Shown: positions 2,924 to 28,911 of the stretch, piece after piece
How positions within the stretch are numbered: the stretch's first letter is position 1
Layout of the letters: each line of letters starts with the position of its first letter
Source of the DNA: a virus
IMG/VR virus record: IMGVR_UViG_3300021138_001229
Location: 1-28,911 of that record
Length of the DNA stretch: 28,911 nucleotides
Strand: one strand, 5' to 3'
Made by a program: the position numbers and the translations under genes
Notes under the pieces: model-generated
What the model was told of the DNA's origin: nothing
Database searches by the model: none
Seen by the model: only the letters and a program-made list of their open reading frames with translations

Positions 2924-3141
2924 CAATAACAACTCCCAGGTTGTCCAGGTTCATTGCTGTTGGTACAGGTTAATCTATGATCTGTAGCTCGTGGGCAACG
3001 CTTGTTACCACAATCTGGACACAGTATCATGCGTTGTGCCAACCAGGGCCATCCACGTTCGTCTGTTTTATCTTTAAGACACATATGACAGTTACCACAG
3101 TTGTCGGCATTGATTCTGTCTTCAGTGGTAAATGTGGTCAT
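2923..3141 (-). CDS. Small zinc-ribbon protein downstream of queE
   Basis: 72 aa. The start at 3141 is preferred because its ATG overlaps the queE stop (TAATG); an ATG four codons earlier would be the alternative. It has at least three cysteine groups: CGNCHMC, CPDCGNKRC and later single cysteines (RLTCTNS, GSCY). The first two CxxC-type knuckles should bind one zinc. The product resembles uncharacterised zinc-ribbon proteins of T4-like marine phages. Placement after queE suggests co-expression with deazaguanine synthesis, not a shown role in it. Confidence 0.7.
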   Translation of the reverse strand: MTTFTTEDRINADNCGNCHMCLKDKTDERGWPWLAQRMILCPDCGNKRCPRATDHRLTCTNSNEPGQPGSCY

Positions 3142-4001
3142 TAGGTACCCCATTCGTTCTTAAAAAGCGGAACCTGAAGTCTATCACTGTATCTCCAACC
3201 ACGTTTCATGGCTGCCCCGGCTACATTACGTGCGTTAAGCGTGTATACACTTTCGACACCGCCTACTGGCATTAGATAAACTGGTCCTCGAAATCCCGCC
3301 GCCCGATAAGCACCTACCGCGCACTCTGCGTCGGCAACATCTTGCTGTGTTGCTACTACAAATTTGAGATATGTTGTACCAACTTCTTCATATTCACAAA
3401 CGATTTCGGGCTTAATTGCTTCTTCCCAACGTTCACCTGATCCAGGCAACTTTGCACTGACACTAAAAGTTACTTCGTTGGGATAGCCAATACCATCTAA
3501 TTGCCAATTAGTCAAAAAGTTTTTAAATTCTTCTGACAATTTTTGTGTACCATTTGTTTCAAATGTAATTTCTTTAAGACCTGCCATGATTGGATGCTCT
3601 AATAGATCTGGATAAGCTCGTTGCCATCCCAACAATGGTTCGCCGCCGGTTATGACTAAATGCTCATCGCACCATTCGTTATGTGGCAATATTTCCATGA
3701 TACGATTGGCAATAGCATCTGTTTCTAACATTGGACTTAGGTCCTTAAAGTCAGGATGCCAACTCGCATAACTGTCGCAGCCAGTTGAGACCAATGGAAG
3801 ACTTTCATATTTTGGATAAGGATACAATGAATGTATCGCGGCAAGATCATCTGCTTCAGTACTTAACATAGGCCTTTCCATACCAAACCCGGCGCATTTA
3901 AAATTACAGCCAAAAGTTCTTAGGAATACACTAGGCACTCCCATATATCTGCCCTCACCTTGAATACTATAAAATAATTCTGCTACTTTAATTTTACTCA
4001 T
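3141..4001 (-). CDS. queE: 7-carboxy-7-deazaguanine (CDG) synthase, radical SAM
   Basis: Converts 6-carboxy-tetrahydropterin, the QueD product, into CDG, the third step from GTP toward 7-deazaguanine bases. The N-terminus has the QueE signature FYSIQGEGRYMGVPSVFLR with G15-E16-G17, then GCNFKC. The SAM-binding segment ITGGEPLLGW follows near residues 117-126, with the partial TIM-barrel behind it (ITFETNGTQ; FSVSAKLPGSGE). The cluster ligands look unusual: C32 and C36 are CX3C, but the next cysteine is C75 (GCDSYASW), giving CX3CX38C with an insertion. At 286 aa it is longer than the usual 210-240. It overlaps the MazG-like gene by 8 bp and is coupled to the zinc-ribbon gene. Confidence 0.85.
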   Translation of the reverse strand: MSKIKVAELFYSIQGEGRYMGVPSVFLRTFGCNFKCAGFGMERPMLSTEADDLAAIHSLYPYPKYESLPLVSTGCDSYASWHPDFKDLSPMLETDAIANRIMEILPHNEWCDEHLVITGGEPLLGWQRAYPDLLEHPIMAGLKEITFETNGTQKLSEEFKNFLTNWQLDGIGYPNEVTFSVSAKLPGSGERWEEAIKPEIVCEYEEVGTTYLKFVVATQQDVADAECAVGAYRAAGFRGPVYLMPVGGVESVYTLNARNVAGAAMKRGWRYSDRLQVPLFKNEWGT

Positions 4002-9608: not shown

Positions 9609-9782
9609 TTAATTCCAGTGTTTGATTACTCCGGCGATTATGAAAAAATTGGTAATAATATAAATTAACACAATTATTGTTCTTACACAGGCAATACGAT
9701 CTGCTTCTTCGTCTGTATTGCCTGCTTTTTCACCTAGAGCTTTGGCCCAAAGACGCCAAATTTTATGCAAATAAGTCTTCAT
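9609..9782 (-). CDS. Small membrane protein (57 aa)
   Basis: The start at 9782 is an ATG inside the last codons of queD (20-bp overlap); a longer reading from 9908 would bury 42 residues in queD and is unlikely. The N-terminal half is soluble and charged (KTYLHKIWRLWAKALGEKAG, then NTDEEADRIACVR) and the C-terminal half is one hydrophobic helix (TIIVLIYIITNFFIIAGVI). Similar proteins occur in T4-like marine phages with no known role. It ends the queD operon, and 62 bp without a gene separate it from the sugar operon. Confidence 0.7.
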   Translation of the reverse strand: MKTYLHKIWRLWAKALGEKAGNTDEEADRIACVRTIIVLIYIITNFFIIAGVIKHWN

Positions 9783-10290
9783 TCCATTCTCTATGACCTT
9801 CTCTAAAAGCCATATTGCTTTGTGTTTCTCGTACTTCCACACGATAACACCATAAACGATTGGCTTCACTTGGTCCCCATAAGTCTGGAATATAAACCCC
9901 GTTAACATATTTGTAAAGCATGTCAGCTAGTCCTTCGCAACCTAATTTAGGTAGGATAGTGAGTTTAGCCATTTTCTTTTCTTGTAGAAGTTTGTATGTT
10001 TCAAGTTCCGGGTCATCAGAACTGACCAGTAAAGTATGATCAAATTGATCTTCTAGTATACCTTTGAGCTCTTTCAATCCACCATAGTCGGCTGCCCAAT
10101 TACGTACATCTAAATCGTTTGTACCAAAATAAAATTTCATACTAAAGCTGTATCCGTGTATTAGATTACAGTGACTGTCTGCTCGCCATTGCCTGTAGGC
10201 ACAGGGAAATGCGTCGTGGTATTCTTTGGTACTGACATATCGGTATGCGATTGGTACTACTTGATTTCCTACTGAGTATATTTCTATCAT
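9763..10290 (-). CDS. queD: 6-carboxy-5,6,7,8-tetrahydropterin synthase
   Basis: A QueD/PTPS-family tunnelling-fold enzyme making 6-carboxytetrahydropterin from dihydroneopterin triphosphate, the FolE product. The active segment ADSHCNLIHGYSFSMKF has the catalytic-type C41 with H40 and H45; the position of the second zinc His in the usual HGH is Tyr (Y47). FDHTLL (83-88) and RVEVRET near the C-terminus match the remaining PTPS motifs. At 175 aa it is longer than bacterial QueD (about 120). AGGAG precedes the ATG by 6 nt and overlaps the edge of a palindrome (10300-10322), which could affect translation. Confidence 0.88.
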   Translation of the reverse strand: MIEIYSVGNQVVPIAYRYVSTKEYHDAFPCAYRQWRADSHCNLIHGYSFSMKFYFGTNDLDVRNWAADYGGLKELKGILEDQFDHTLLVSSDDPELETYKLLQEKKMAKLTILPKLGCEGLADMLYKYVNGVYIPDLWGPSEANRLWCYRVEVRETQSNMAFREGHREWNEDLFA

Positions 10291-10924: not shown

Positions 10925-10950
10925 ATAACATATTACAACAGGCTTCGCAA
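10922..10950 (-). promoter_or_regulatory. Sigma70-like promoter for the small-protein/queD operon
   Basis: On the minus strand TTGCGA (10945-10950) and TATTAT (10922-10927) are 17 bp apart. The -35 matches 4 of 6 and the -10 matches 5 of 6 consensus bases. It overlaps the start codon of the antisense endonuclease gene and would restart transcription toward queD beyond the inserted gene. A perfect 7-bp-arm palindrome, TTATTTA-A-TAAATAA, occupies 10911-10925, covering part of the -10. Confidence 0.5.
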
Positions 10951-11564
10951 TGTTTTTGAACAACAAATACACTACACTTTACTACAAGATTATTAATCGT
11001 GCGATAGAACGCAATCATAATAAACAGCGACACGACGGATTTCAAATACATCATATTATCCCTCGCTGTTTTGGCGGAACTGACGACGCTACTAATCTTG
11101 CTACGCTTACTTACAAAGAACATCGTGTATGCCATCGATTATTGATTAATATGACTACTGCTGACGCCAAATACAAAATGATGCATACCTACAAATTGTT
11201 TAACAAATACTACGATGCTTCAGGTGCTCCGTCTCCGCAAATCTACTGTACTTCTGACTCTTACATTAAAATGGTAGAGACTCGTAAACGCAAAGGCAGT
11301 TACAAAACTGGCAAGAATAATATTTTTTCAAGTCCTGAGATTATTAAACAAGTTCGTCAACGAATGACTGACAATAATCCAATGAAGCGACCTGAACAAC
11401 GAGAGCGTATGAGCTTTAACAATAATAATCCTTATGTTAAACCTATTACAGTCGACGGCATCGATTTTCCTACTATCGGAGCCGCCGCACGTCATTTTAA
11501 TACTACACCTTACCTACTCAAAAAACGCTACACTATCGTGGTGCGAAATCCTGCTGTAGTTTAA
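10950..11564 (+). CDS. HNH homing endonuclease, antisense insertion at folE
   Basis: 204 aa. The HNH core is FQIHHIIPRCFGG (H34/H35), then DDATNLATLTYKEHRVCH with N49 and H58/H62. The middle is basic (about 90-135, with GSYKTGKNNIF and NNPMKRPEQRERM typical of NUMOD3-like DNA-contact repeats), and the end (TVDGIDFPTIGAAARHFN, TTPYLLKKRY) is a NUMOD1-like helix-turn-helix. It is therefore a free-standing homing endonuclease. It lies opposite to all neighbours, its last 32 bp run through the 3' end of folE, and a second copy of the folE tail lies on its other side, which suggests that folE is its homing site. Confidence 0.85.
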   Translation: MFLNNKYTTLYYKIINRAIERNHNKQRHDGFQIHHIIPRCFGGTDDATNLATLTYKEHRVCHRLLINMTTADAKYKMMHTYKLFNKYYDASGAPSPQIYCTSDSYIKMVETRKRKGSYKTGKNNIFSSPEIIKQVRQRMTDNNPMKRPEQRERMSFNNNNPYVKPITVDGIDFPTIGAAARHFNTTPYLLKKRYTIVVRNPAVV

Positions 11565-12282
11565 TATTGTCAAAGAATTCCTTCTTTGTTCCCATATCTT
11601 CATTGAATGCTCCGCGCAACACAGATGTCTGTGTTAAACTACTGTGAGCCATAATTCCTCTATTTTCGCAACATCCGTGCTGGGCCTGTATATAAACACC
11701 TACATCTTTGCTATCTGTAGCCTTCATTATTTCTCTAGCGATGTCATTACACAATTCCTCTTGAAGAGTACCACGCCGAGCACACCATTGAGCAATCCTA
11801 GTATACTTACTAAGACCAATAAGTTTTTGGGCGGCAATAATTCCGATATAAGCCACACCTGAAACAGGTTGATGATGATGACTACACATACTACGCAATT
11901 CACTACGTACAACCAACATACCTTCATATCTATCCTCCGAATCATTTGGAAACGCTGTCGCATCTGGAGCAGGCTCGTATCTACCCGCCATTATTTCATT
12001 AAAATACATTTTAGCAAGACGTCTAGCTGTGCCCTTTGAGTTTGGATCTGTTTCTCTATCAATTAGTAACGCATCCAACACACCTTCGAACGCACGAGTA
12101 GCATCATCAATTAATGTTCTTCTAACAGAGTCGTTATTAACGTATTCACTTATATTGTCTCCTGCCCAAAATCTTTTACCATTACGCTTCATTGTATTGC
12201 GTAATACTTCTGCTAAGTTAGGAGCATTTTCATGTTTCCACGTTGTATTCTCGTTTTCCCTAAAATCTTTATCGTTACTCAT
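11533..12282 (-). CDS. folE: GTP cyclohydrolase I
   Basis: Opens the 7-deazaguanine pathway by converting GTP to dihydroneopterin triphosphate, the QueD substrate. The zinc site is seen as C133 in SMCSHHHQPVSG with the following histidines and C204/C205 in AQHGCCENRGI; the GTP-binding LIGLSKYTRIAQWCARR segment lies between. The phage form has the characteristic tail HSSLTQTSVLRGAF. At 249 aa it is full length and starts directly after the stop of the upstream gene (TAAATG). Its last ten codons are shared, antisense, with the endonuclease gene, and the same tail is repeated at 10574-10675. Confidence 0.92.
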   Translation of the reverse strand: MSNDKDFRENENTTWKHENAPNLAEVLRNTMKRNGKRFWAGDNISEYVNNDSVRRTLIDDATRAFEGVLDALLIDRETDPNSKGTARRLAKMYFNEIMAGRYEPAPDATAFPNDSEDRYEGMLVVRSELRSMCSHHHQPVSGVAYIGIIAAQKLIGLSKYTRIAQWCARRGTLQEELCNDIAREIMKATDSKDVGVYIQAQHGCCENRGIMAHSSLTQTSVLRGAFNEDMGTKKEFFDNIKLQQDFAPR

Positions 12283-13818: not shown

Positions 13819-13844
13819 ATATATGAAATAAGTGAAAATGTCAA
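13816..13844 (-). promoter_or_regulatory. Sigma70 promoter for the GT-B gene
   Basis: Minus-strand TTGACA (13839-13844) is perfect and TATTAT (13816-13821) is 5 of 6, 17 bp apart. The -35 lies inside the possible N-terminal codons of the divergent endonuclease gene, so the two transcription units share these bases. Start expected near 13809. Confidence 0.75.
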
Positions 13845-14674
13845 GCATTATGAATACACGCGAAATAAAAAATTTGATAGAAAGTTATCCAGATAGGATA
13901 ACTAATCTCAGAAAAACTATTGAACAATATATGATTGGTCGAATAGAGGTCTATCCAAAATCTTGGCCGTTGTTTCAGTGTGTTTATCATGAATTGTATT
14001 TAGGTAAATCTTCTACTATAGTATTATGTCCGGTGTGTAATCTAAAACCGTTATCGTTCAACGGAATACGAAAAGGATATCGGCAAAATTGTTCAGCAAG
14101 TTGTCGCAACCGCAGTCCTGAGTTTCTTAAAAAATATAAAGATACTTGTTTAGAAAATTTCGGCACAGAATTTGCGTCTCAATCAAAAAAATTTAAGAAA
14201 ACGGTTGAATCTACTAACATAAGGAAATATGGTGTTGATAATCCTATGAAGGTTACTAAATTTAAAGATACACATAGGAAATCTTGTATGACAAAGTACG
14301 GAGTTGATAATCCGTCTAAAGCTCAAGTAGTAATTAATAAAATTAAAGAAACAAGAGTATCTTCAGGAGATTGGATAAGTGATGATAGTAAAAGTGATTT
14401 AGAAAAATATCGATTAGCAGTAAAGAAAATAACTGCTAAATCATATCACGATCATTACTACAAAATCAATCCTAATAACTTAACTCGTTCAAGATATCAA
14501 TACCATGTAGATCATATTTTTTCAGTAGAAGAAGGATTTAAACAAAAAGTTCCAGCCGAAGTTATTGGTCACTGGACTAATTTAAGAATGTTATGGCATT
14601 TAGATAATTCTATTAAAAATACTAAATGCCATACCACCTTAAAACAACTACTTGAACAATACAAGTTAAATTAG
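13838..14674 (+). CDS. HNH-type homing endonuclease with zinc finger and repeat region
   Basis: About 278 aa. Possible starts are GTG 13832, ATG 13838 and ATG 13850; none has a strong ribosome-binding site, and I use 13838 because it suits the late promoter box. An N-terminal zinc finger (CPVCN, then CSASC) is followed by three similar blocks containing FGTEFASQS, YGVDNPMK and YGVDNPSK. The C-terminal nuclease reads YQYHVDHIFSVEEGF, then HWTNLRMLWHLDNSIKNTK, an HNH-like metal site with the final Asn/Lys motif. It is antisense to its neighbours; its stop overlaps the next minus-strand gene by 9 bp. Confidence 0.8.
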   Translation: MSSIMNTREIKNLIESYPDRITNLRKTIEQYMIGRIEVYPKSWPLFQCVYHELYLGKSSTIVLCPVCNLKPLSFNGIRKGYRQNCSASCRNRSPEFLKKYKDTCLENFGTEFASQSKKFKKTVESTNIRKYGVDNPMKVTKFKDTHRKSCMTKYGVDNPSKAQVVINKIKETRVSSGDWISDDSKSDLEKYRLAVKKITAKSYHDHYYKINPNNLTRSRYQYHVDHIFSVEEGFKQKVPAEVIGHWTNLRMLWHLDNSIKNTKCHTTLKQLLEQYKLN

Positions 14675-17040: not shown

Positions 17041-17915
17041 AAATTCTCTATCTTTCCGTGTATCCATATATCTTTGTCTAGTTGATCCTGCCAAAAGTCA
17101 TTATTGTTTATATTGTTATACGCATCTCTAATCATATTTAGATAAGCACTTTCGGGGCACCATCCTAATTCAAATTGCTCTGTACTGTTGTCAGGCATAA
17201 CAAAATTAATTGAACTACTTTCAATATTCATACTACGCCAATTAGCTAGACATTCCCATTTATTGCCAAATCCAATATGACACATATCATCTACATCATA
17301 CGTACCATTATAGTTTACTACACCATACTCTGTGCTGTCAATATCTTTTAATTGCCATTGCATCAAAGCGCCTTGCCCGTTCACTGAGTCAGTACGCCAG
17401 TTGGGATTCATAGCTATATAAAGACTCAACAAATGTGGCATTAAATCTCTACTTACCCCACCAAAAGCTAATTCTCTTGTAGTAAACCAACTTCCAGGAT
17501 TAGGAATACAGTTGCGTCTTATCCATTGTATGTCTACCTGTTTAGCCCGTTCGGCTAAGATTTGTAATTCACTTATATTGTCACGCCACATGTTATTTTT
17601 CACCATCATAAAACGAGTGGCAGGAAAAGTATCGACTAGTTGTAGCCATTCTTTGCTAGTCTTTACACCTGGCTTTTCTACAAACACAATACGACCACTC
17701 TGTGCTACTCTAGAGGCCAAATCAAAATGTGTATAGTTTGGAGTACAGATGTGTACAGTATCAAATATGCCATAACTGGCAATGGCGGAAACAACGTCGG
17801 TAAAGTCAGCTTTCTTATTGACATCAGCATCTACAGTTACTATTGTAGCACCTAATTCAGTTAATACACTATGGTATAACTGCCCAATTCCCATGCCTAT
17901 AATTAAACTTTTCAT
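17037..17915 (-). CDS. Gfo/Idh/MocA-family oxidoreductase
   Basis: 292 aa. The N-terminal NAD(P)-binding motif is IIGMGIGQLYHSVL (7-14), HICTPNYTHF (57-63) is the nicotinamide-side loop, and VFVEKPG (E80-K81-P82) is the family's catalytic-Lys motif. The C-terminal domain is the usual beta sheet. Most relatives act on sugars, inositols or bile pigments. TAATG couples it to dpdA upstream, and ATGA to the MDR gene downstream. Length is at the low end of the family (330-370). Confidence 0.8.
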   Translation of the reverse strand: MKSLIIGMGIGQLYHSVLTELGATIVTVDADVNKKADFTDVVSAIASYGIFDTVHICTPNYTHFDLASRVAQSGRIVFVEKPGVKTSKEWLQLVDTFPATRFMMVKNNMWRDNISELQILAERAKQVDIQWIRRNCIPNPGSWFTTRELAFGGVSRDLMPHLLSLYIAMNPNWRTDSVNGQGALMQWQLKDIDSTEYGVVNYNGTYDVDDMCHIGFGNKWECLANWRSMNIESSSINFVMPDNSTEQFELGWCPESAYLNMIRDAYNNINNNDFWQDQLDKDIWIHGKIENL

Positions 17916-19519
17916 TATTCAAACAGTACGTTAAATTGACTCATTGAGTTTTTAGATTTCTTTCCTGTATATCCACGTGTACCAATTATATTCATCCAGT
18001 ATCTGTCATAGTATTCAATAATATCTAATGCGTCATCTTTATTATTGGCTGAAAAAATAGCGTCGACAATATCTTTAAACATCATACCGTCGCCAGGTAT
18101 ATTTCGCATCATCTTTGGCCAACTGCCATTATCATATTCGCGATTAGCACGTTGTACTGATTCTAAATGTAGCCAAACATTATGTGCCATTAGTAAAGCA
18201 TAGCTAAAACTATCCCAAGAAGTTTTACCTTCTTTGCCAATTTTGTTTAACATTCCTGGAGCGTATATACAAACATCTTTTATTAATAAATTTTTACTAA
18301 CTGGACTTTCATCAAAATGATCAATTAATTTATCTTGTAATACAGCATCTCGATATGTACGTGTGTCATTGGCATACTTTTTATCATCGGCAATAGCACT
18401 CATTCTGTAACACCATTTGCCATCATGAGGTAAGTCAATATGATGATAAACTTGACCATTGGCAGTTGCTAAGAAAGGACTAGCACAATCAAAAGATATA
18501 GTAAAAGCCGGATTTACATACTTGCGAATAGCACGTTGTATATCTGTTAATAACATAGCCCATTCTAATTTACTAGTGCCCAAAAAGTGCATCCAATCAT
18601 GTTGCCCTTCTTGTAGTAAGCCGTCAAATTTTAATACTACCAATCGTTTCAATATAAGATGGATGTCACACATATTTTGACCACCCATAGCCCAGCCATT
18701 AAACGCTTTATTGCCGTAGACTTTGGGATCACAAAAATCTTTCATTTGATTGTACCAGTCATCCGCCTGACTATGATTCTCGCCTTGTAATACATTTAAG
18801 AATTTACAAGCGCCTGTACGATGTTTAATCCAATACTCATTATTATATCTTGTGGCATTTACTGCCTGCTGATAACTTTCGATACCAGTAGCAGTACGTC
18901 CTTCGGGGCTACGTTCTACCCATGCTGGAATATCTAACACCATACCATAGTCCATGTACGTGTCCATCCAAGTCAACACTTGACTACGCTTTTTTTGTGC
19001 CGCATCTAATTTGTCTTGATAGTTTTTAACATGATCAATTTTAACATACTTTGCGTTGCCATTTTTATCGTGTTTAGGTTTACCTGTTTTATCAAGCGCC
19101 GGTACATGTTCAATACCACGAGCAACAGCTTCTGCCATTTTAGCCGCAACTTCCGGACCATTAGGATCACGCCATTCGCCTTCCCAAACACCTTTACCAA
19201 TTTGGAAACCGCCTGAATCACCTAGTACAAAACTATTTGTGCGATCACGACCACGAACCATGTCTTCATTCCAATCGTGTTTTGTAGTATCAAGATTAGC
19301 GTGACCGGCAGAGTACAAACTCCATCTATAAGGAAATAAACCTTTTTGTGGATTGAGCCAATTTAACATTTCCATATCTTGTATACCTTGTGGCATGCGA
19401 GATTTGGGAACTCCACTCCCGCTACGTTGTTTGCCAATATAAGTAGCATAGAATCCGCTGAGTGCTGGGAGAAACAATGCGTAATCGGATTGTTTTGAAG
19501 TTAAGTTATCTTGTGTCAT
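17915..19519 (-). CDS. dpdA: DpdA-like DNA 7-deazaguanine transglycosylase
   Basis: A TGT-superfamily base-exchange enzyme. Phage DpdA replaces guanine in DNA with a 7-deazaguanine base. The TGT active-site blocks are in order: LGDSGGFQIG (D101, general acid/base), VLDIPAW (D196), NVLQGE (Q245), GWAMGG (275-280) and FDCASPF (D344, the covalent nucleophile position). After the nucleophile I see no CxCxxC-x-H zinc site as in bacterial TGT; C423-type residues in DVCIYAPGML and H-rich helices are the nearest. At 534 aa it is longer than bacterial TGT (about 375). Overlaps by 1 bp with genes on both sides. Confidence 0.82.
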   Translation of the reverse strand: MTQDNLTSKQSDYALFLPALSGFYATYIGKQRSGSGVPKSRMPQGIQDMEMLNWLNPQKGLFPYRWSLYSAGHANLDTTKHDWNEDMVRGRDRTNSFVLGDSGGFQIGKGVWEGEWRDPNGPEVAAKMAEAVARGIEHVPALDKTGKPKHDKNGNAKYVKIDHVKNYQDKLDAAQKKRSQVLTWMDTYMDYGMVLDIPAWVERSPEGRTATGIESYQQAVNATRYNNEYWIKHRTGACKFLNVLQGENHSQADDWYNQMKDFCDPKVYGNKAFNGWAMGGQNMCDIHLILKRLVVLKFDGLLQEGQHDWMHFLGTSKLEWAMLLTDIQRAIRKYVNPAFTISFDCASPFLATANGQVYHHIDLPHDGKWCYRMSAIADDKKYANDTRTYRDAVLQDKLIDHFDESPVSKNLLIKDVCIYAPGMLNKIGKEGKTSWDSFSYALLMAHNVWLHLESVQRANREYDNGSWPKMMRNIPGDGMMFKDIVDAIFSANNKDDALDIIEYYDRYWMNIIGTRGYTGKKSKNSMSQFNVLFE

Positions 19520-20680: not shown

Positions 20681-21702
20681 TTAAAATTCAAATAAAGTTT
20701 GGAAAGTATTTTCAGTATTCGTGGCACTGGCTAAGTCCCACTCTAGGACACTGAGTAAGTTATCTATTTTTTGATCTACAATAGTTGCTTCCATTAGACT
20801 GTTATCAAATGGTAATTCTTTAAACCATTCAGGAAGCCTTTGTTCATCTGTTGGATAACCAATACTGTTCCATCCCATTGGATTTTGTTTTAATTTACAC
20901 ACAATAGTTTTCATACCGTCAACTATAGCCATAGAATAATTGTCCCCATTCATTCTACGTAAATTATTCCAATTTAATGCTGCACGAACGTGTCCGGGCA
21001 TATTGGCTTTGCCTTCTGCTTCTTCTTTCTTACCATACATAGTAAGATTGTTCACACGTTTTGGAGTGCCTTTTTCCCAAGCTGGTCGATCTTTAAACGC
21101 ATATTTAAATTCACGTATACGTTCAACGATTTCTTCTCTGCCAGTTCCTGTCAATACTTTCTCAAGTATTTCATATAAAAAATCCTGTATAACTTTAGGA
21201 GTGTCGGAACGTTTTAAATCTAGGCCCATGGCTTTAATTTTACCAGACTTGCCATCAACATCCAAACGTTTGCCTTCTAAGTCAAATATCAGTACAGCAT
21301 ATCGTTTCTTAGTAATGAACAAACTGTTGGATCCAATCAATTCACGTCCCGCTTTGATTAGCTCACCGGCTTCTCTTGGACAGTGAAATGCCTGTTCCAT
21401 AAACGCAGGAAAACTGGCATTTACTTGATCAGCTATGGAGTCATACAACTGTATACACATTTCTTTACTCCATGGCATAGTGCCTTTGGCAACATCATCT
21501 TTAATCATGGGCCAAGCAGTAAAGTAACAACTGTCAGTATCGCCGTATACAATAGCATCACCTAAGTGATCCTTAACACCAGTAATACATTCATTGATAT
21601 AGCCAGCCATATGTCTAGCAATACTACGTCCTGTTAGTGTAGTTGACTGTCCAATACGTTTGTCCGCAAATCTACAATGCGGATTAAGAATTGCTCCATA
21701 CA
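20681..21702 (-). CDS. DNA polymerase C-terminal part, second exon
   Basis: Encodes the 3' exon of the family B polymerase fragment that begins at 22157. It starts mid-motif B with Tyr-Gly-Ala, then NPHCRFADKRIGQSTTLTGR, and the motif C catalytic aspartates in VYGDTDSC. KKRYAVLIFDLEG and the thumb domain follow. Joined to 21971-22157 it gives 1209 bp, 402 codons plus stop in frame. The last residues TNTENTFQTLFEF resemble a clamp-binding tail. A free-standing start at 21715 (MNINVYG) would come from intron bases and is not real. Confidence 0.9.
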
Positions 21703-21970
21703 CATTTATGTTCAACTAACTTTGCTAATGCTAGTTCGTTTATTTTACTAAACTGCCTTATATTTCTATAAGGATCAGACTATATCACCATCCAATGTTA
21801 TTTTTGGATGCTCCCCATTTCGATTCGCTTGAATCTACGTCTTTCGACTAGTCGTTGAACCTTCATATTTCTATGCTTGGCTGCTGATTGTCTTCAACTT
21901 AATGGTCAGAGTTTCCAGCAATTAAAGGAGTTATTCAACTATTGTTGCCAATAGAGGTCGCAGTATCTTT
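21703..21970 (-). ncRNA. Group I self-splicing intron in polymerase motif B
   Basis: A 268-nt intron without an ORF. On the minus strand the 5' exon ends in AAATTCGT with the last U at 21971, and the intron ends with G at 21703. Core elements in order: P-type GCTGGAAACTC (21909-21923 region), Q-type AATCAGCAGCC (21879-21889), R-type GTTCAACGACTAGTC (21846-21860), S-type GATATAGTCTGA (21775-21786). P1 pairs exon UCGU with GCGA near the intron start, leaving U-G at the splice site; AUAC just before it pairs with GUAU of the 3' exon (P10). P9 is a 7-bp stem with a GAAA loop (21756-21773). The elements resemble the T4 td group IA2 intron. Confidence 0.93.
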
Positions 21971-22157
21971 ACGAATTTAAATTAATTTTCTTAACTAGTT
22001 GGCGCTTGTCCCAAAACGCTACTTGTTTTTTTACTTCATCTAAATTTTTGTGGAAGATTTTATTATCACTAATAATAAGATCATTTTGTGCACAAAAATC
22101 CTCCAACTCGCCCCTAGTACCGTTTTCTAGAATTGAGTTGAGATCTTCAATATTCAT
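21971..22157 (-). CDS. DNA polymerase C-terminal part, first exon (with own start)
   Basis: 62 codons plus one base. The end, FWDKRQLVKKINLNS, is polymerase palm motif B (its Lys contacts dNTPs), and it breaks off at the intron; splicing restores NSLYGA. The earlier residues (LEDFCAQNDLIISDNKIF) look like the linker before motif B. The ATG at 22157 lies inside the last codons of the endonuclease gene, 11 bp before its end, with AGAGAGG 5 nt upstream, so this half is translated independently. The ORF alone would stop at the TAA formed at the intron border. Confidence 0.88.
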
Positions 22158-23127
22158 AGATTCCTCTCTTGTTTAAAATATGTTTTGTGTGCTTATTTTG
22201 TATTTCTTTGCTTTCAAAAATAATTTCAGGACACCAATTATCAGAAGATATACGTATAAGCCGGATATCTTCTTCAACACATATTTGGTGCTTGACAATG
22301 TCATTCTTAATTGATGATTCTTTTCTATGCCAATATTCTCCGTCTACCTCTACTAATAATAACATATCTAGTAAGTAAAAGTCAAACTTCTTCTCTCTAA
22401 TTGGATGTTGTGTGACATATCTAATATTGTTATCGTTTAAAAATTGTTCAAAAGAAATCTCTAAACTTGTTTTTTCTTTATTTGGAAACGTTAACCCGTT
22501 TTCTTTTAAATATTTTTTGCGTATGATGCTTGCTTTTGCTCGATATTTTTCAAATTCAACTTTATCTTCTTTGCGACTTTCCCACGCCTTTTTTTGATTA
22601 AGTGTTTTTTGTTGTTTTGCAGCGGCTGATAAATTAATAGTTTTGCCTGTTTTCATAATAGATAAGTCTTTTTTGGTTTTTGCGGAATGCACAACTCCTG
22701 TATGACCAATCCTTGACTTATGATAACATTTTTGACATTGCGTCCCGTCTAAAAAATTCCCTAAACTCACTTTATAATTGCCGTGCGACGAGCACATTAC
22801 TTCTATAACATCTGTTCGAGTTAATACTTTGTTTGGTAGACTAACTACAGTATAATCGGTCGTTTCTGCGTTATGTATTTCTTCTAGCGATATAATATTA
22901 TTTGTATTTGTATGTTTACGGCATCTAATATTATCGTTGGTATCCCGGAATCGTTTAGTTATAGATACAGGGTTGTCACAAATTTCGCATTTAGGAGTAG
23001 GATCACCTCGTAAATACATTTGGACTGCGGCATACACATCAAATATGTTTTTTCTGCCGCCGTAATACTCTATTAATCGCTTAAATTGACGAGGATATTT
23101 TTTCTTAAATACGTTAACAAAATTCAT
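22147..23127 (-). CDS. EDxHD/Vsr-like homing endonuclease splitting the polymerase gene
   Basis: 326 aa, same strand as the polymerase. The C-terminal domain (about 220-300) is a Vsr-like PD-(D/E)xK-type fold: KTSLEISFEQFL, KKFDFYLLD, LVEVDGEYWH (D262, H267) and IRLIRISSDNW; this matches EDxHD homing endonucleases. The N-terminal half holds zinc-knuckle cysteines (CEIC, later CSSHG and CQKC) and a basic helical linker (KQQKTLNQKKAWESRKEDK). An AAGGAAAT site precedes the ATG. It occupies nearly all of the space between the two polymerase halves, leaving no room for a second intron. Confidence 0.85.
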   Translation of the reverse strand: MNFVNVFKKKYPRQFKRLIEYYGGRKNIFDVYAAVQMYLRGDPTPKCEICDNPVSITKRFRDTNDNIRCRKHTNTNNIISLEEIHNAETTDYTVVSLPNKVLTRTDVIEVMCSSHGNYKVSLGNFLDGTQCQKCYHKSRIGHTGVVHSAKTKKDLSIMKTGKTINLSAAAKQQKTLNQKKAWESRKEDKVEFEKYRAKASIIRKKYLKENGLTFPNKEKTSLEISFEQFLNDNNIRYVTQHPIREKKFDFYLLDMLLLVEVDGEYWHRKESSIKNDIVKHQICVEEDIRLIRISSDNWCPEIIFESKEIQNKHTKHILNKRGIYEY

Positions 23128-23157
23128 AATATTTCCTTTATATTATTTATTCTGTTG

Positions 23158-24795
23158 TTATTGAGATTGATTTTTTTGACTAACTGTCAATCGCTCCGGT
23201 AATTTAATACCGCTTGATAAGTTATTCCATAAGTTCTTAGTTTTCTGTAGCGTTTTTCTCTCAGCATACCAACGTTCTAATAATCCTGGAACAACACCTT
23301 TGCGTTCATACGTAACAATAGTACCGTTGGCAGTTAACATCCAAGGTTGATTACTGTTAAAAATCATATGCCAAATATCAGCGGCACTGTGTACTGTTGA
23401 ATCTCCGTCCTGCCAGTCAACAGTTATTTCTGTGCCTTTTTGTTGTTCCATAACAGCAGTATATTCTAAAGTGGCAAATACACCTTCCCAAGCTGCCGCA
23501 AAAGTTTTTCCTTTGTCAACTATTTCATTTATATAACGATCAGTCATTATAGGACGTAGTTGTCCGATAACAGTTTCCATTCCCATATTCAATGCTCGAA
23601 TAGCTGACGGATACAGTGAATTAATGTCAACTGCTCCCACCCACTGATGTGTACCTTTTTTAGGATACGCTACATAAGCACCAGCTGCCGCAGTATCATC
23701 ATCAGTTAATCTCTGTCTACGATTAGGAACTACCAATCCTCGTTCATGTGCTTCAACAATAATAGCCTGCTCTGTTACCGCAACTGCGCCCATTGTTGTT
23801 GGAATTAATACAGTATTAGCGTGTGCCAATTCATTTGCCAAATCAATAAATTTTAATTTATTGTCTAGTTTATTAAGCAATAGTGTATCTTGCCTATTGT
23901 ATTCAATAAACTTTTTAAAATTTTGATTATATAATTGATCCAGTGTACCTTCATAGGCAGTTTTGTGTTCGCCAAGTTCATATTCACCAATGGCATCTAA
24001 ACTATAACTGTGTCTTTCTTCATAGGTATATTTTCTATACAGTTGCATATAGTCCATGTGTACACGACCAACAATATCATAAGTTGTACTAGTAGCGCCA
24101 AATCTTTCAAACTCACGTTCTTTAGGATACTGTCCCCATAGACAAAATCTACGTGTGTCATCTTTGCTGAGTACACGTTTGATACGATTTATAGTATAAG
24201 GTATATCATAACCTTCACTGTTCCAACCTGACAATACATCAGCATCTTCAATTAGATCAAGAAAAGTTTTTAACATTTCCGCTTCGTCGCTAAACACAAT
24301 ACAGTTTTCAAAGTCAGCGGCAACTTCCTTGCCAGTTTCCATACTCATATGTTTAGGTGGGATAACTAGTGTAACTAATTGTTCCATCCACTGTAAGTAA
24401 ACACTAATGGCAGTTATAGCATTAAATGGATCTGTAGTTGGCGAAAATCCTCGTTCTTTATGAAAGTCTACTTCAATGTCGAAAAATGCTGTTTGTAATA
24501 TTGGCGCATCGACACCTTTGTAATTTTCCTCCAAGCAACGGAATATGGGATTAATATCAGCTTCGTATAACTGTTTGCCTTTTTGTATAGCCACTTCTCG
24601 TCTAAACTCTTTGGCTGTACGGGCAGAAAATCTACTTACAGGTGTGCCGTAAATAGATTTAAATTTACCCCTAACATCGTCATAATAAAATATATATTCT
24701 GCTGGGTATTCTTTGTAAACACGTTCACCGTTGATTCGCTCAACTACATGAATTCTATCGTGTTCACGATCATATAGTGCGTCTACAAATGACAA
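23158..24795 (-). CDS. Family B DNA polymerase, N-terminal part (gp43-like)
   Basis: 545 aa. The proofreading exonuclease motifs are intact: FFDIEVDF (D106, E108), SGWNSEGYDIPY (D197) and YNRQDTLLL (D303). The palm motif A follows as AVDINSLYPSAIRALNM (D390), and the fragment ends after ERKTLQKTKNL in LPERLTVSQKNQSQ, short of motif B. It therefore holds the exonuclease and one palm aspartate and needs the second fragment (22157 on) for activity. The start is a TTG directly behind the DsbA-like stop (TAATTG), with GGAAAG 11 nt upstream; no early ATG exists. Confidence 0.92.
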   Translation of the reverse strand: MSFVDALYDREHDRIHVVERINGERVYKEYPAEYIFYYDDVRGKFKSIYGTPVSRFSARTAKEFRREVAIQKGKQLYEADINPIFRCLEENYKGVDAPILQTAFFDIEVDFHKERGFSPTTDPFNAITAISVYLQWMEQLVTLVIPPKHMSMETGKEVAADFENCIVFSDEAEMLKTFLDLIEDADVLSGWNSEGYDIPYTINRIKRVLSKDDTRRFCLWGQYPKEREFERFGATSTTYDIVGRVHMDYMQLYRKYTYEERHSYSLDAIGEYELGEHKTAYEGTLDQLYNQNFKKFIEYNRQDTLLLNKLDNKLKFIDLANELAHANTVLIPTTMGAVAVTEQAIIVEAHERGLVVPNRRQRLTDDDTAAAGAYVAYPKKGTHQWVGAVDINSLYPSAIRALNMGMETVIGQLRPIMTDRYINEIVDKGKTFAAAWEGVFATLEYTAVMEQQKGTEITVDWQDGDSTVHSAADIWHMIFNSNQPWMLTANGTIVTYERKGVVPGLLERWYAERKTLQKTKNLWNNLSSGIKLPERLTVSQKNQSQ

Positions 24796-26606: not shown

Positions 26607-26699
26607 CTATACAGGAGCAAATGGCAAAACTGGGCTGTCGTTTTCGGGATATTCTTGATTGGGTTCTGGATAAACAGGATATGGATATTGACTATCCAT
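26607..26699 (-). CDS. Pro/Tyr-rich microprotein (30 aa)
   Basis: A 30-codon ATG frame starting MDSQYPYPVYPEPNQEYPE and ending PVLPFAPV. Eight of thirty residues are Pro and four are Tyr. Its ATG overlaps the stop of the modular protein by 8 bp, and its stop touches the -35 of the next promoter, so it fills the gap exactly as a real gene would. Likely an unstructured tail or adaptor peptide; no function known. No strong ribosome-binding site is visible. Confidence 0.5.
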   Translation of the reverse strand: MDSQYPYPVYPEPNQEYPENDSPVLPFAPV

Positions 26700-28911
26700 T
26701 ATGCGGTTCCCATGAATAATCTACATTTACTACCACTTTGTTTTGTTTGGCATAATAGGCTTTTGGATCAAAGTTGTCTTTGGTAACTTTGATTTTTTTA
26801 TGTGTGCCGTCATCGAAGAAGATTTTCCAAATATAATACTGTCCTGGTTGCAAATTACTTTTTTCTACGGCTTCGTATAGCATAGCATCAAATTGTTCTT
26901 GACTTTCACAGTGCCATTTACGTAATGATTTATTAATACGTGAATTTGGATCGTGTGCTGTTTTACTATTAGTATTGTGTTTTTTCATGCCCTTCATGCG
27001 AGCACAAAAACTTTTACGACGTTTGGCTGCTTTACTTCCTGGTTTAAGTTTACTAGGTTTGGTAGTTACAGCAGTTTGTAATTTTGAACCAGGATGGCTA
27101 CGACGATAGCTGGCAACGCCTTTTTTGTTTAACCCACCGTTTTTGTTTTTTCCTTTACTAGTTTGCCAAGCTTCAGCTTCGTCTATACTTTCGTTTGGCA
27201 CACAGTTACGTACTTGGCCACCGTTCTTGCCCCGTTTAGTACCTTCTGCATGTTTGCCAGGCCAGCAACTAGTATAACCATTGGCATCCTTTTGACCTTT
27301 TTTAATTTCATTGATATTGCCATGTGTTTTGCACATGCCACAGTCAGGGCAGGTCATTTCCATAGTTATGTCTTCATTGTGTTTCTTTTTGCCAGCACAG
27401 TGAGCACGTTGACTGAATCCTTTTGGATGACTACAGTTAATACTGCGTTTGTATTTTTCACTCCAGGCGTCTTCGTCGTTGATAAACTGATCATCGTATT
27501 TGCCTTCCGGCAATACATCGTCTTGTGGTTCATAATACCAGCCCATGCCAGGATCATCGGCGCCGGTGCGTTGAGGATTATTCCACTTGAAATAGGCAAT
27601 TTGTTTTGGTTGACCGTCATAATCCCAATAGCCTCGGAACTCGCCTGTGGCGTCATTCATATCTTCCTCGTCAAAATGGTCTGCTTCGAATTGACCAAAG
27701 AAATCTATACTACGACGATAGTGTTCTGGTTTAGGATACTTGTATGGATCATCACCAGGGCCTTCTTCTCTGCCATCGCGACTGCGAACAAATTCTTTTA
27801 GAGAGCCCTCTGCCACACCTTGCTTCTTCATATACTTCTTACGCAATTTTAAGTCTGCTGGCGTTGCTTTTCTGATTAAATTCAAATATTTGTTTACTGG
27901 AACTGCTTTTATCTCAATGGGTTTGATGCCTTTGACACCAGGAATAGAATGAAACTCTCTGCTATTGCCACCTTGAACAAACTGCGGTTTTCCATCTGGG
28001 CCGTTGAATGGTAATTTATGTAGATACACATATTCACCTTTTCTAATCTTGCCACTGAACAAAACCATTTGTGGATCATTGGGGAACATACCTGTATCAC
28101 TGCCAGGAGTAGTAAGTCCCATTGCAATGGCAACTTTAGGATCGCTGGTAGCATAGATAGCATTTTGATTACTACCAGCCGCACCACCTGTGTCTACAGC
28201 TTGGCGTGGTTCTAACATAGGAATCTTTTGTCTTGACCCATGCCAAAGATAGGTATTAATAACTTTGCCTTCCGCCACACCTTGCTCGTCTATTTCCAAA
28301 TCTAAGCTGTCCCAGATTCTACTTTTGACTTGTTCTACAACATCATCAGTATATGTTTTTTCCAGATTTGATTCCAAGTTGTAAATTACTTCATCTATGT
28401 CTTCACCTTGGGCTATTTGTTTTTGAACTTGATCAAGCCATTGGTAGAACTCTTGTCTAGAATAAGATTCTTTTTTTGGTTTTTTCTTGAATCTATCAAA
28501 AATACCTTCCGCCACACCTGACTTATAACTTGGTTGTGTTTTTGCATCAGTTGCTTGGACCGCGGCCACTAATAATTTGTTTCCAGCGGCAATGGCATTG
28601 TCTAATGCGTCTTTTCTACTGGTAGCTACTTGACCAGCATCTTTGAATATCGCAGGATTGCGAACATTTACAGTGGGATTGGGCAATGGTTTGTTGTTTA
28701 TAAAATATTCTTCATTATTGGCATTAGCGGCTATCCACTTGTTTACCTCATACCTATCTTTTAAGAATTGTAATTTGCCTACTCCGTCTTTGCCATCAGT
28801 GGGATCTAGTCCCGTCTGTGCCAGTTGTTGTGCAAATTTTTCTTGATTCTGTGGATAAGCATCCATGTGTTGAACTAACAACCAGGCCGCATAAGGAGCC
28901 GCAGGATACGA
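26692..28911 (-). CDS. Large modular protein with GVAEG-separated units, N-terminus outside window
   Basis: Open to the window edge: ten residues before the TTG at 28881 continue the frame (SYPAAPYAAWLL), so it is a C-terminal piece of at least 739 aa. Residue numbers count from 28881. Unit 1 (to 122) resembles a DUF6624-type VQHMDAYPQNQ segment. Unit 2 (126-200) is helical. Unit 3 (205-350) has YLWHGSRQKIPMLEPRQ then NAIYATSDPKVAIAMGL, an ADP-ribosyltransferase-like pattern. Unit 4 (360-456) is acidic. The last part (461-729) has CSHPKGFSQRAHC, CPDCGMC, SYRRSHPGSKL and SFCARMKGMKK basic zinc-type modules. Unit borders carry GVAEG or LPEG. Confidence 0.75.
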   Translation of the reverse strand, partial: SYPAAPYAAWLLVQHMDAYPQNQEKFAQQLAQTGLDPTDGKDGVGKLQFLKDRYEVNKWIAANANNEEYFINNKPLPNPTVNVRNPAIFKDAGQVATSRKDALDNAIAAGNKLLVAAVQATDAKTQPSYKSGVAEGIFDRFKKKPKKESYSRQEFYQWLDQVQKQIAQGEDIDEVIYNLESNLEKTYTDDVVEQVKSRIWDSLDLEIDEQGVAEGKVINTYLWHGSRQKIPMLEPRQAVDTGGAAGSNQNAIYATSDPKVAIAMGLTTPGSDTGMFPNDPQMVLFSGKIRKGEYVYLHKLPFNGPDGKPQFVQGGNSREFHSIPGVKGIKPIEIKAVPVNKYLNLIRKATPADLKLRKKYMKKQGVAEGSLKEFVRSRDGREEGPGDDPYKYPKPEHYRRSIDFFGQFEADHFDEEDMNDATGEFRGYWDYDGQPKQIAYFKWNNPQRTGADDPGMGWYYEPQDDVLPEGKYDDQFINDEDAWSEKYKRSINCSHPKGFSQRAHCAGKKKHNEDITMEMTCPDCGMCKTHGNINEIKKGQKDANGYTSCWPGKHAEGTKRGKNGGQVRNCVPNESIDEAEAWQTSKGKNKNGGLNKKGVASYRRSHPGSKLQTAVTTKPSKLKPGSKAAKRRKSFCARMKGMKKHNTNSKTAHDPNSRINKSLRKWHCESQEQFDAMLYEAVEKSNLQPGQYYIWKIFFDDGTHKKIKVTKDNFDPKAYYAKQNKVVVNVDYSWEPHNG
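27805..28518 (-). repeat. Three GVAEG-encoding repeats at unit borders
   Basis: Copies lie at 27805-27819, 28267-28281 and 28504-28518. The DNA is conserved as well as the peptide: minus-strand CAAGGTGTGGCAGAGGG, CAAGGTGTGGCGGAAGG and TCAGGTGTGGCGGAAGG. The peptide context V-A-E-G fits the T4 prohead-protease rule (hydrophobic, any, Glu, then Gly/Ala). LPEG at residues 457-460 is a further site of the same kind. Confidence 0.7.

Follow-up and report, generated by a model that had tools for sequence, protein, structure and literature searches.

A mosaic phage gene family with units joined by an in-frame DNA word that encodes a candidate capsid-protease site

Boundary or linker sequences have been proposed for mosaic phage genomes. 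The idea is mentioned in PMC3233612 and PMC3029335. The literature on phage T4 already describes internal proteins that carry a capsid-targeting peptide and are cleaved and injected: the published cleavage rule of the T4 protease gp21 is L/I-x-E, Asp at P1 blocks gp21 processing, the N-terminus of the internal protein IPIII is MKTYQEFIAE|A (AF158101), and T4 proteins that begin in this way are taken into the head and injected. For polyvalent proteins, which are multidomain chains, injection followed by processing into units has been proposed (Iyer et al. 2017, PMC5512222). Here, we have analysed a gene of a large T4-like phage, marked by a short linker, that looks like a means of filling the virus head with exchangeable proteins to be delivered to the host.

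The window, i.e. the whole stretch of DNA that was analysed, is an entire 28.9-kb virus fragment (IMGVR_UViG_3300021138_001229, 28,911 nucleotides), and the gene is located at its edge, with the reading frame open at the 5′ end because the contig stops there. A preliminary description of the window had noted a modular protein with three GVAEG words and one LPEG word at the borders of distinct units. These positions have been verified (GVAEG at residues 132-136, 211-215 and 365-369; LPEG at residues 467-470), and the pattern has proved to be more general: the protein contains six sites of the form [ILVM]xE[GAS], compared with 1.4 expected (P(>=6)=0.004), two of which, IDE|A at residue 578 and LYE|A at residue 680, had escaped that description (Table 1). 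All six sites are borders of units that recur elsewhere beside other neighbours, so the protein is modular as claimed. The number of GVAEG words expected from composition in a protein like this one is 0.001, only 2 of 2000 shuffles gave any pentapeptide three times, and the three words are copies of a single DNA word. The same description had proposed a search for GVAEG in other proteins; the other long open reading frames of the window do not contain it.

Table 1. Features of the modular gene in window coordinates; the vertical stroke of the site names is replaced by a slash, and P1 is the residue that precedes it.
Feature	Position	Strand	Remarks
Modular polyprotein gene	26692..28911	-	739 codons; 5′ end missing at contig edge
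Unit S1, aa 1-135, start incomplete	28507..28911	-	Homologues L026 (87%) and L028 (70%) stop at same site; continuations differ
Linker word 1, SGVAE/G, P1 = E135	28504..28524	-	18/21 consensus bases
Unit S2, aa 136-214	28270..28506	-	Flanked by two linker words; relative search found none
Linker word 2, EQGVAE/G, P1 = E214	28267..28287	-	20/21 consensus bases
Unit S3, aa 215-368, ADP-ribosyltransferase-like (HGS, YAT, conserved Glu)	27808..28269	-	48 loci, many different neighbours
Linker word 3, KQGVAE/G, P1 = E368	27805..27825	-	19/21 consensus bases
Unit S4, aa 369-469	27505..27807	-	Homologues in L016 and L144 stop at same place
Site LPE/G, P1 = E469	27502..27513	-	Border by recurrence
Unit S5, aa 470-578, Cys-rich, basic	27178..27504	-	42 loci; homology stops at same residue, continuations differ
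Site IDE/A, P1 = E578	27175..27186	-	Window protein motif
Unit S6, aa 579-680, DUF6321 (PF19846)	26872..27177	-	Pfam, 66 bits
Site LYE/A, P1 = E680	26869..26880	-	Window protein motif
Unit S7, aa 681-739	26695..26871	-	Comes after KGVAE in L007

Relatives of the gene have been collected by a protein search of viral contigs, which returned 63 loci, and by a fully degenerate DNA pattern for KQGVAEG, which returned at least 120 stretches; a large mosaic protein family joined by (K)QGVAEG is thus found at no fewer than about 180 related phage loci, with up to about ten units per protein among the matches listed. Splitting the linker-bearing proteins among these matches at the linker has given 608 segments of 35 residues or more, which belong to 390 families. 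Three or more members are known for 38 of these families, and every one of the 38 is found beside two or more different neighbours on one side. Internal homology ends within five residues of a GVAE site in 34-36% of cases, compared with 9% for shifted sites, and the peak coincides with the site itself: homology ends at E|G and starts at Q-G. The GVAEG genes of one 354-kb contig (G001) form a single cluster at 131-137 kb, and the DNA polymerase of the window is common to 21 of 22 large contigs, at 57-77% identity. It was also observed that linker genes often run off their contigs, 48 of 158 at the 5′ end and 13 of 158 at the 3′ end (e.g. the window at 28911, L034 and L115), which is partly due to the sampling of short contigs; repeats or allele mixtures may break assemblies within these genes.

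The linker is conserved as DNA as well as peptide, a point that the preliminary description had not made. Its family consensus is the 21-nt word AAGCAAGGTGTGGCGGAAGGC, conservation spans positions -6 to +14 with sharp ends, and all 255 distinct copies of GGTGTGGCGGAA among the matches listed occur in the GVAE frame. Among 366 distinct instances in these matches, the linker codons are GGT in 95%, GTG in 85% and GCG in 88%, compared with 45%, 23% and 12% in the overall usage of the same genes; this fixation is not a search bias, because the sampling pattern allowed every synonym. In homologous stretches with 30-40% protein identity, the third bases of four-fold codons agree in 89% inside the linker and in 36% outside it, i.e. 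the third bases of the linker are about 0.9 identical although the other silent sites of the modules have been randomised. The usage and silent-site comparisons rule out codon bias alone and common descent of the modules alone as the source of the fixed codons; the linker is therefore either younger than its modules or homogenised independently of them. Modules are shuffled at the linkers: in three alleles whose flanks are about 99% identical (L053, L061 and L056), whole modules have been gained or lost exactly between linkers, with an alignment overlap of 17-21 bases that is the linker itself. Two exact matches of the word in cellular genomes have been judged to be chance (one in a 38-codon frame, the other in an unrelated bacterial protein).

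The linker peptide is under selection at exactly the positions of the gp21 rule, P1 and P3. This was examined codon by codon in drifted linkers, defined as those that keep at least 14 of the other 18 bases, where the ratio of nonsynonymous to synonymous changes, obtained from opportunity-corrected simple counts rather than a fitted model, is 0.07 at the P1 Glu and 0.39 at the P3 Val, compared with 0.91 at P2, 1.27 at P4 and 0.89 at P1′. A strict set, with one copy per junction from 417 junctions without a similar flank, gives the same picture (P1 0.10, P3 0.60, P2 1.15, P4 1.29 and P1′ 1.00), and the difference in constraint between P1 and P2 holds in both (p=2e-5; strict set, p=0.0015); P2, P4 and P1′ drift near neutrality. 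Most changes of the P3 Val, 37 of 41, are to M, L, I, F or W, and none of the 13 changes at P1 in the drifted set is to Asp, with two such changes in a looser set. The view of the preliminary description that these are gp21-type sites is thus upheld by the constrained Glu and the hydrophobic P3, as in L/I-x-E. Two observations count against it: P3 of the linker is mostly Val, whereas the T4 rule names Leu or Ile, and the modules show no internal depletion of hydrophobic-x-E, which could have been a sign of exposure to the protease.

The start of the window gene is missing, but those of its relatives can be set against T4 IPIII and IPI (AF158101): the modular proteins begin with MRATEFIVE|G, MRAQEFITE|G, MRANEFIVE|G, MRAIEFLTE|A and similar peptides. 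A strict capsid-targeting-like pattern is present in 22 of 108 modular proteins, compared with 8 of 671 other open reading frames (p=4e-14), and three of these eight adjoin linker genes. DUF6321, which is internal in the window and follows IDE|A, elsewhere stands alone right behind MKITEIIVE|, MKINEILVE|, MKFEEIVTE| or MRASEFIIE|. Similarly, MKKFSEIIE|A precedes the cytidylyltransferase unit of a Methylophilales phage, a module that occurs in L007 and L011 as a fusion with linker modules; the cyanophage family of this unit has been detected in the S-SM1 virion, according to the literature, and from their annotation, the cyanophage matches appear to belong to the same gene cluster, T4-GC190. 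No enrichment of the late-promoter-like sequence TATAAATA/G has been found upstream of the modular genes, although the promoters of these phages may have another sequence. By eye, a metallopeptidase-like protein (MRASDFLIE|G), a stand-alone DUF6321 protein (MKFEEIVTE|T) and a Dps-like protein adjoin linker genes in L086 (10410-11166 and 11142-11612, minus strand) and G001 (130-132 kb). In two cyanophages (L237, 9422-9742; L238, 7862-8170), the gene after DUF6321, located between terminase subunit genes, starts with MKSFNQFLSE|S, which strongly resembles the T4 capsid-targeting sequence.

A gp21-type S77 protease, the presence of which had been proposed as a check, is encoded by 12 of the 42 relative contigs, and none of the three above 340 kb lacks it (most of the others are fragments); it keeps the catalytic His and Ser motifs GExxHP and GVSSRG; the 28.9-kb fragment carries no protease gene, and the protease of the window is therefore assumed from relatives with a 57-77% identical DNA polymerase. 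The capsid protein gp23 is found in 6 of 18 relative contigs, and in five of these six, L-x-E occurs just ahead of the shell region, where the cut presumably takes place.

With respect to the contents of the modules, Pfam domains from no more than 15 families were detected across 35 linker proteins, among them ParB_N, cytidylyltransferase, GNAT, cytidine deaminase, polbeta and LysM, and together with the recurrence of the units these reveal several unrelated effector-type domains within one chain. An embedded peptidase domain was found neither in the window protein nor among the Pfam matches of the 35 relatives. For the unit at residues 215-368, the preliminary description had noted an ADP-ribosyltransferase pattern, HGS...YAT (placed there at residues 205-350); no sequence match for the unit was found in Pfam or the PDB, but its HGS, YAT and Glu (H, Y and E) are invariant across relatives, and the best Foldseek match of its predicted model (pLDDT 72) is the rifampin ADP-ribosyltransferase Arr (E 0.004, TM 0.42), so that the unit probably adopts an ADP-ribosyltransferase-type fold.

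We consider it probable that the gene encodes a head-packaged effector polyprotein that is cut by the gp21-type protease and has been built by recombination at the linker DNA. An N-terminal capsid-targeting peptide, known from relatives and lost here with the 5′ end, would take the chain into the prohead core, where the protease would cut after Glu at every hydrophobic-x-E border; the freed modules (the probable ADP-ribosyltransferase, the Cys-rich unit, DUF6321 and others) would remain in the capsid and pass into the host together with the DNA. Because the nearly invariant 21-nt word always has the same reading frame, an exchange between one linker and another would insert, delete or replace entire modules in frame, and the cleavage site would be kept. 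Besides the P3 Val and the lack of depletion inside modules, the missing gene start and protease gene of the fragment and the lack of enrichment of late-promoter-like sites weigh against this reading. The preliminary proposal of a head-packed polyprotein released as several effectors is supported in part, as regards modularity, the selected sites, the protease, gp23 and capsid-targeting-like N-termini of relatives, and the probable ADP-ribosyltransferase fold; for cleavage, packaging, injection and the functions of the modules, we infer them from these elements. We give about even chances to the wider claim that the word serves as both in-frame recombination joint and capsid-protease site, such that a phage-wide pool of hundreds of modules could be combined freely, without a dedicated recombinase, into injectable polyproteins from which the maturation protease would release the units.

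The linker could instead be merely a recombination joint, i.e. a short DNA repeat that spread along with its modules and encodes a harmless flexible hinge in a multidomain protein of the polyvalent type that acts uncut: silent-position conservation and module exchange between linkers require no protease. We regard this as unlikely, since it leaves unexplained the P1 Glu and the hydrophobic P3 that are kept in drifted copies, the hydrophobic-x-E form of the non-GVAE borders of the window, and the initiating peptides that end likewise ahead of the same module. It is quite unlikely that cleavage at the linkers yields, instead of injected effectors, products that act solely in the producing cell or as prohead scaffold or core: enzyme domains are recognised in many modules (ParB_N, GNAT, cytidylyltransferase, deaminase), their high turnover between close relatives is better suited to host-directed functions, and T4 proteins with such N-termini are injected, although gp22, gp67 and gp68 of T4 are cut to peptides by gp21 without being effectors, according to the literature, and several modules are short, basic or low in complexity. 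Lastly, the fixed 21-nt sequence with sharp ends and one orientation, repeated directly on both sides of modules, would suit active shuffling of the modules by a dedicated recombinase or homing endonuclease that recognises this site; we hold this to be improbable, as neither tyrosine integrase nor serine resolvase was found in eight large genomes of the group, many linker copies at borders are degenerate, and the homing-type endonucleases of the window have no tie to the word.

Several other features of the window have been noted. Its family B DNA polymerase (20681-24795, minus strand), a single open reading frame of about 890 residues in relatives, is split in two by a group I intron (core at 21756-21980; Rfam RF00028, 78.8 bits) that carries a restriction-endonuclease-like open reading frame (22147-23127). 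QueE-, QueD- and GTP-cyclohydrolase-like genes occur together with a gene for a 534-aa protein (3141-4001, 9763-10290, 11533-12282 and 17915-19519, minus strand); this protein has no family match but by eye resembles tRNA-guanine/7-deazaguanine transglycosylase, and the set suggests 7-deazaguanine modification of the phage DNA. Two plus-strand open reading frames in this minus-strand fragment, for an HNH endonuclease and a DUF7487 protein (10950-11564 and 13832-14674), are probably free-standing homing endonucleases.

If our reading is true, capsid targeting, once a device for individual internal proteins, has been developed by T4-type phages into an open-ended toolkit of shuffled modules. The 390 families from a small sample would be a source of candidate anti-defence and host-takeover proteins, whose modules can be excised computationally because their borders are marked, and the linker offers a direct test of in-frame phage gene shuffling. 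In the open-access literature searched, we have found no description of a chain whose capsid-protease borders are encoded by one shared exchange-joint DNA word, and searches for GVAEG, DUF6321 and T4-GC 119 gave nothing. As in T4 IPI-IPIII and Alt, many relatives have a short N-terminal M-K/R-x-x-E-F-I-x-E before a small residue, and related genomes also encode gp23 and a gp21-type protease; as in Alt, an ADP-ribosyltransferase-like unit is among the cargo. However, each T4 protein consists of a single cargo unit and a propeptide, to which Alt adds another at its C-terminus, whereas here many units are chained, and the site found at each border is encoded by a conserved DNA word. Polyvalent proteins likewise combine ART, ParB-like, GNAT and nucleotidyltransferase domains in multidomain phage chains, but their release has been ascribed to an embedded peptidase domain, with T4 Alt-type ARTs excluded (PMC5512222), whereas in our family a capsid-protease rule marks every border and no such peptidase was found in the window gene. 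Finally, the linker resembles those of mosaic genomes, where module joints also have a short sequence in common and homologous exchange is thereby made possible; those sequences sit between genes, whereas this one lies inside a single gene, always in frame, and encodes a candidate protease site.
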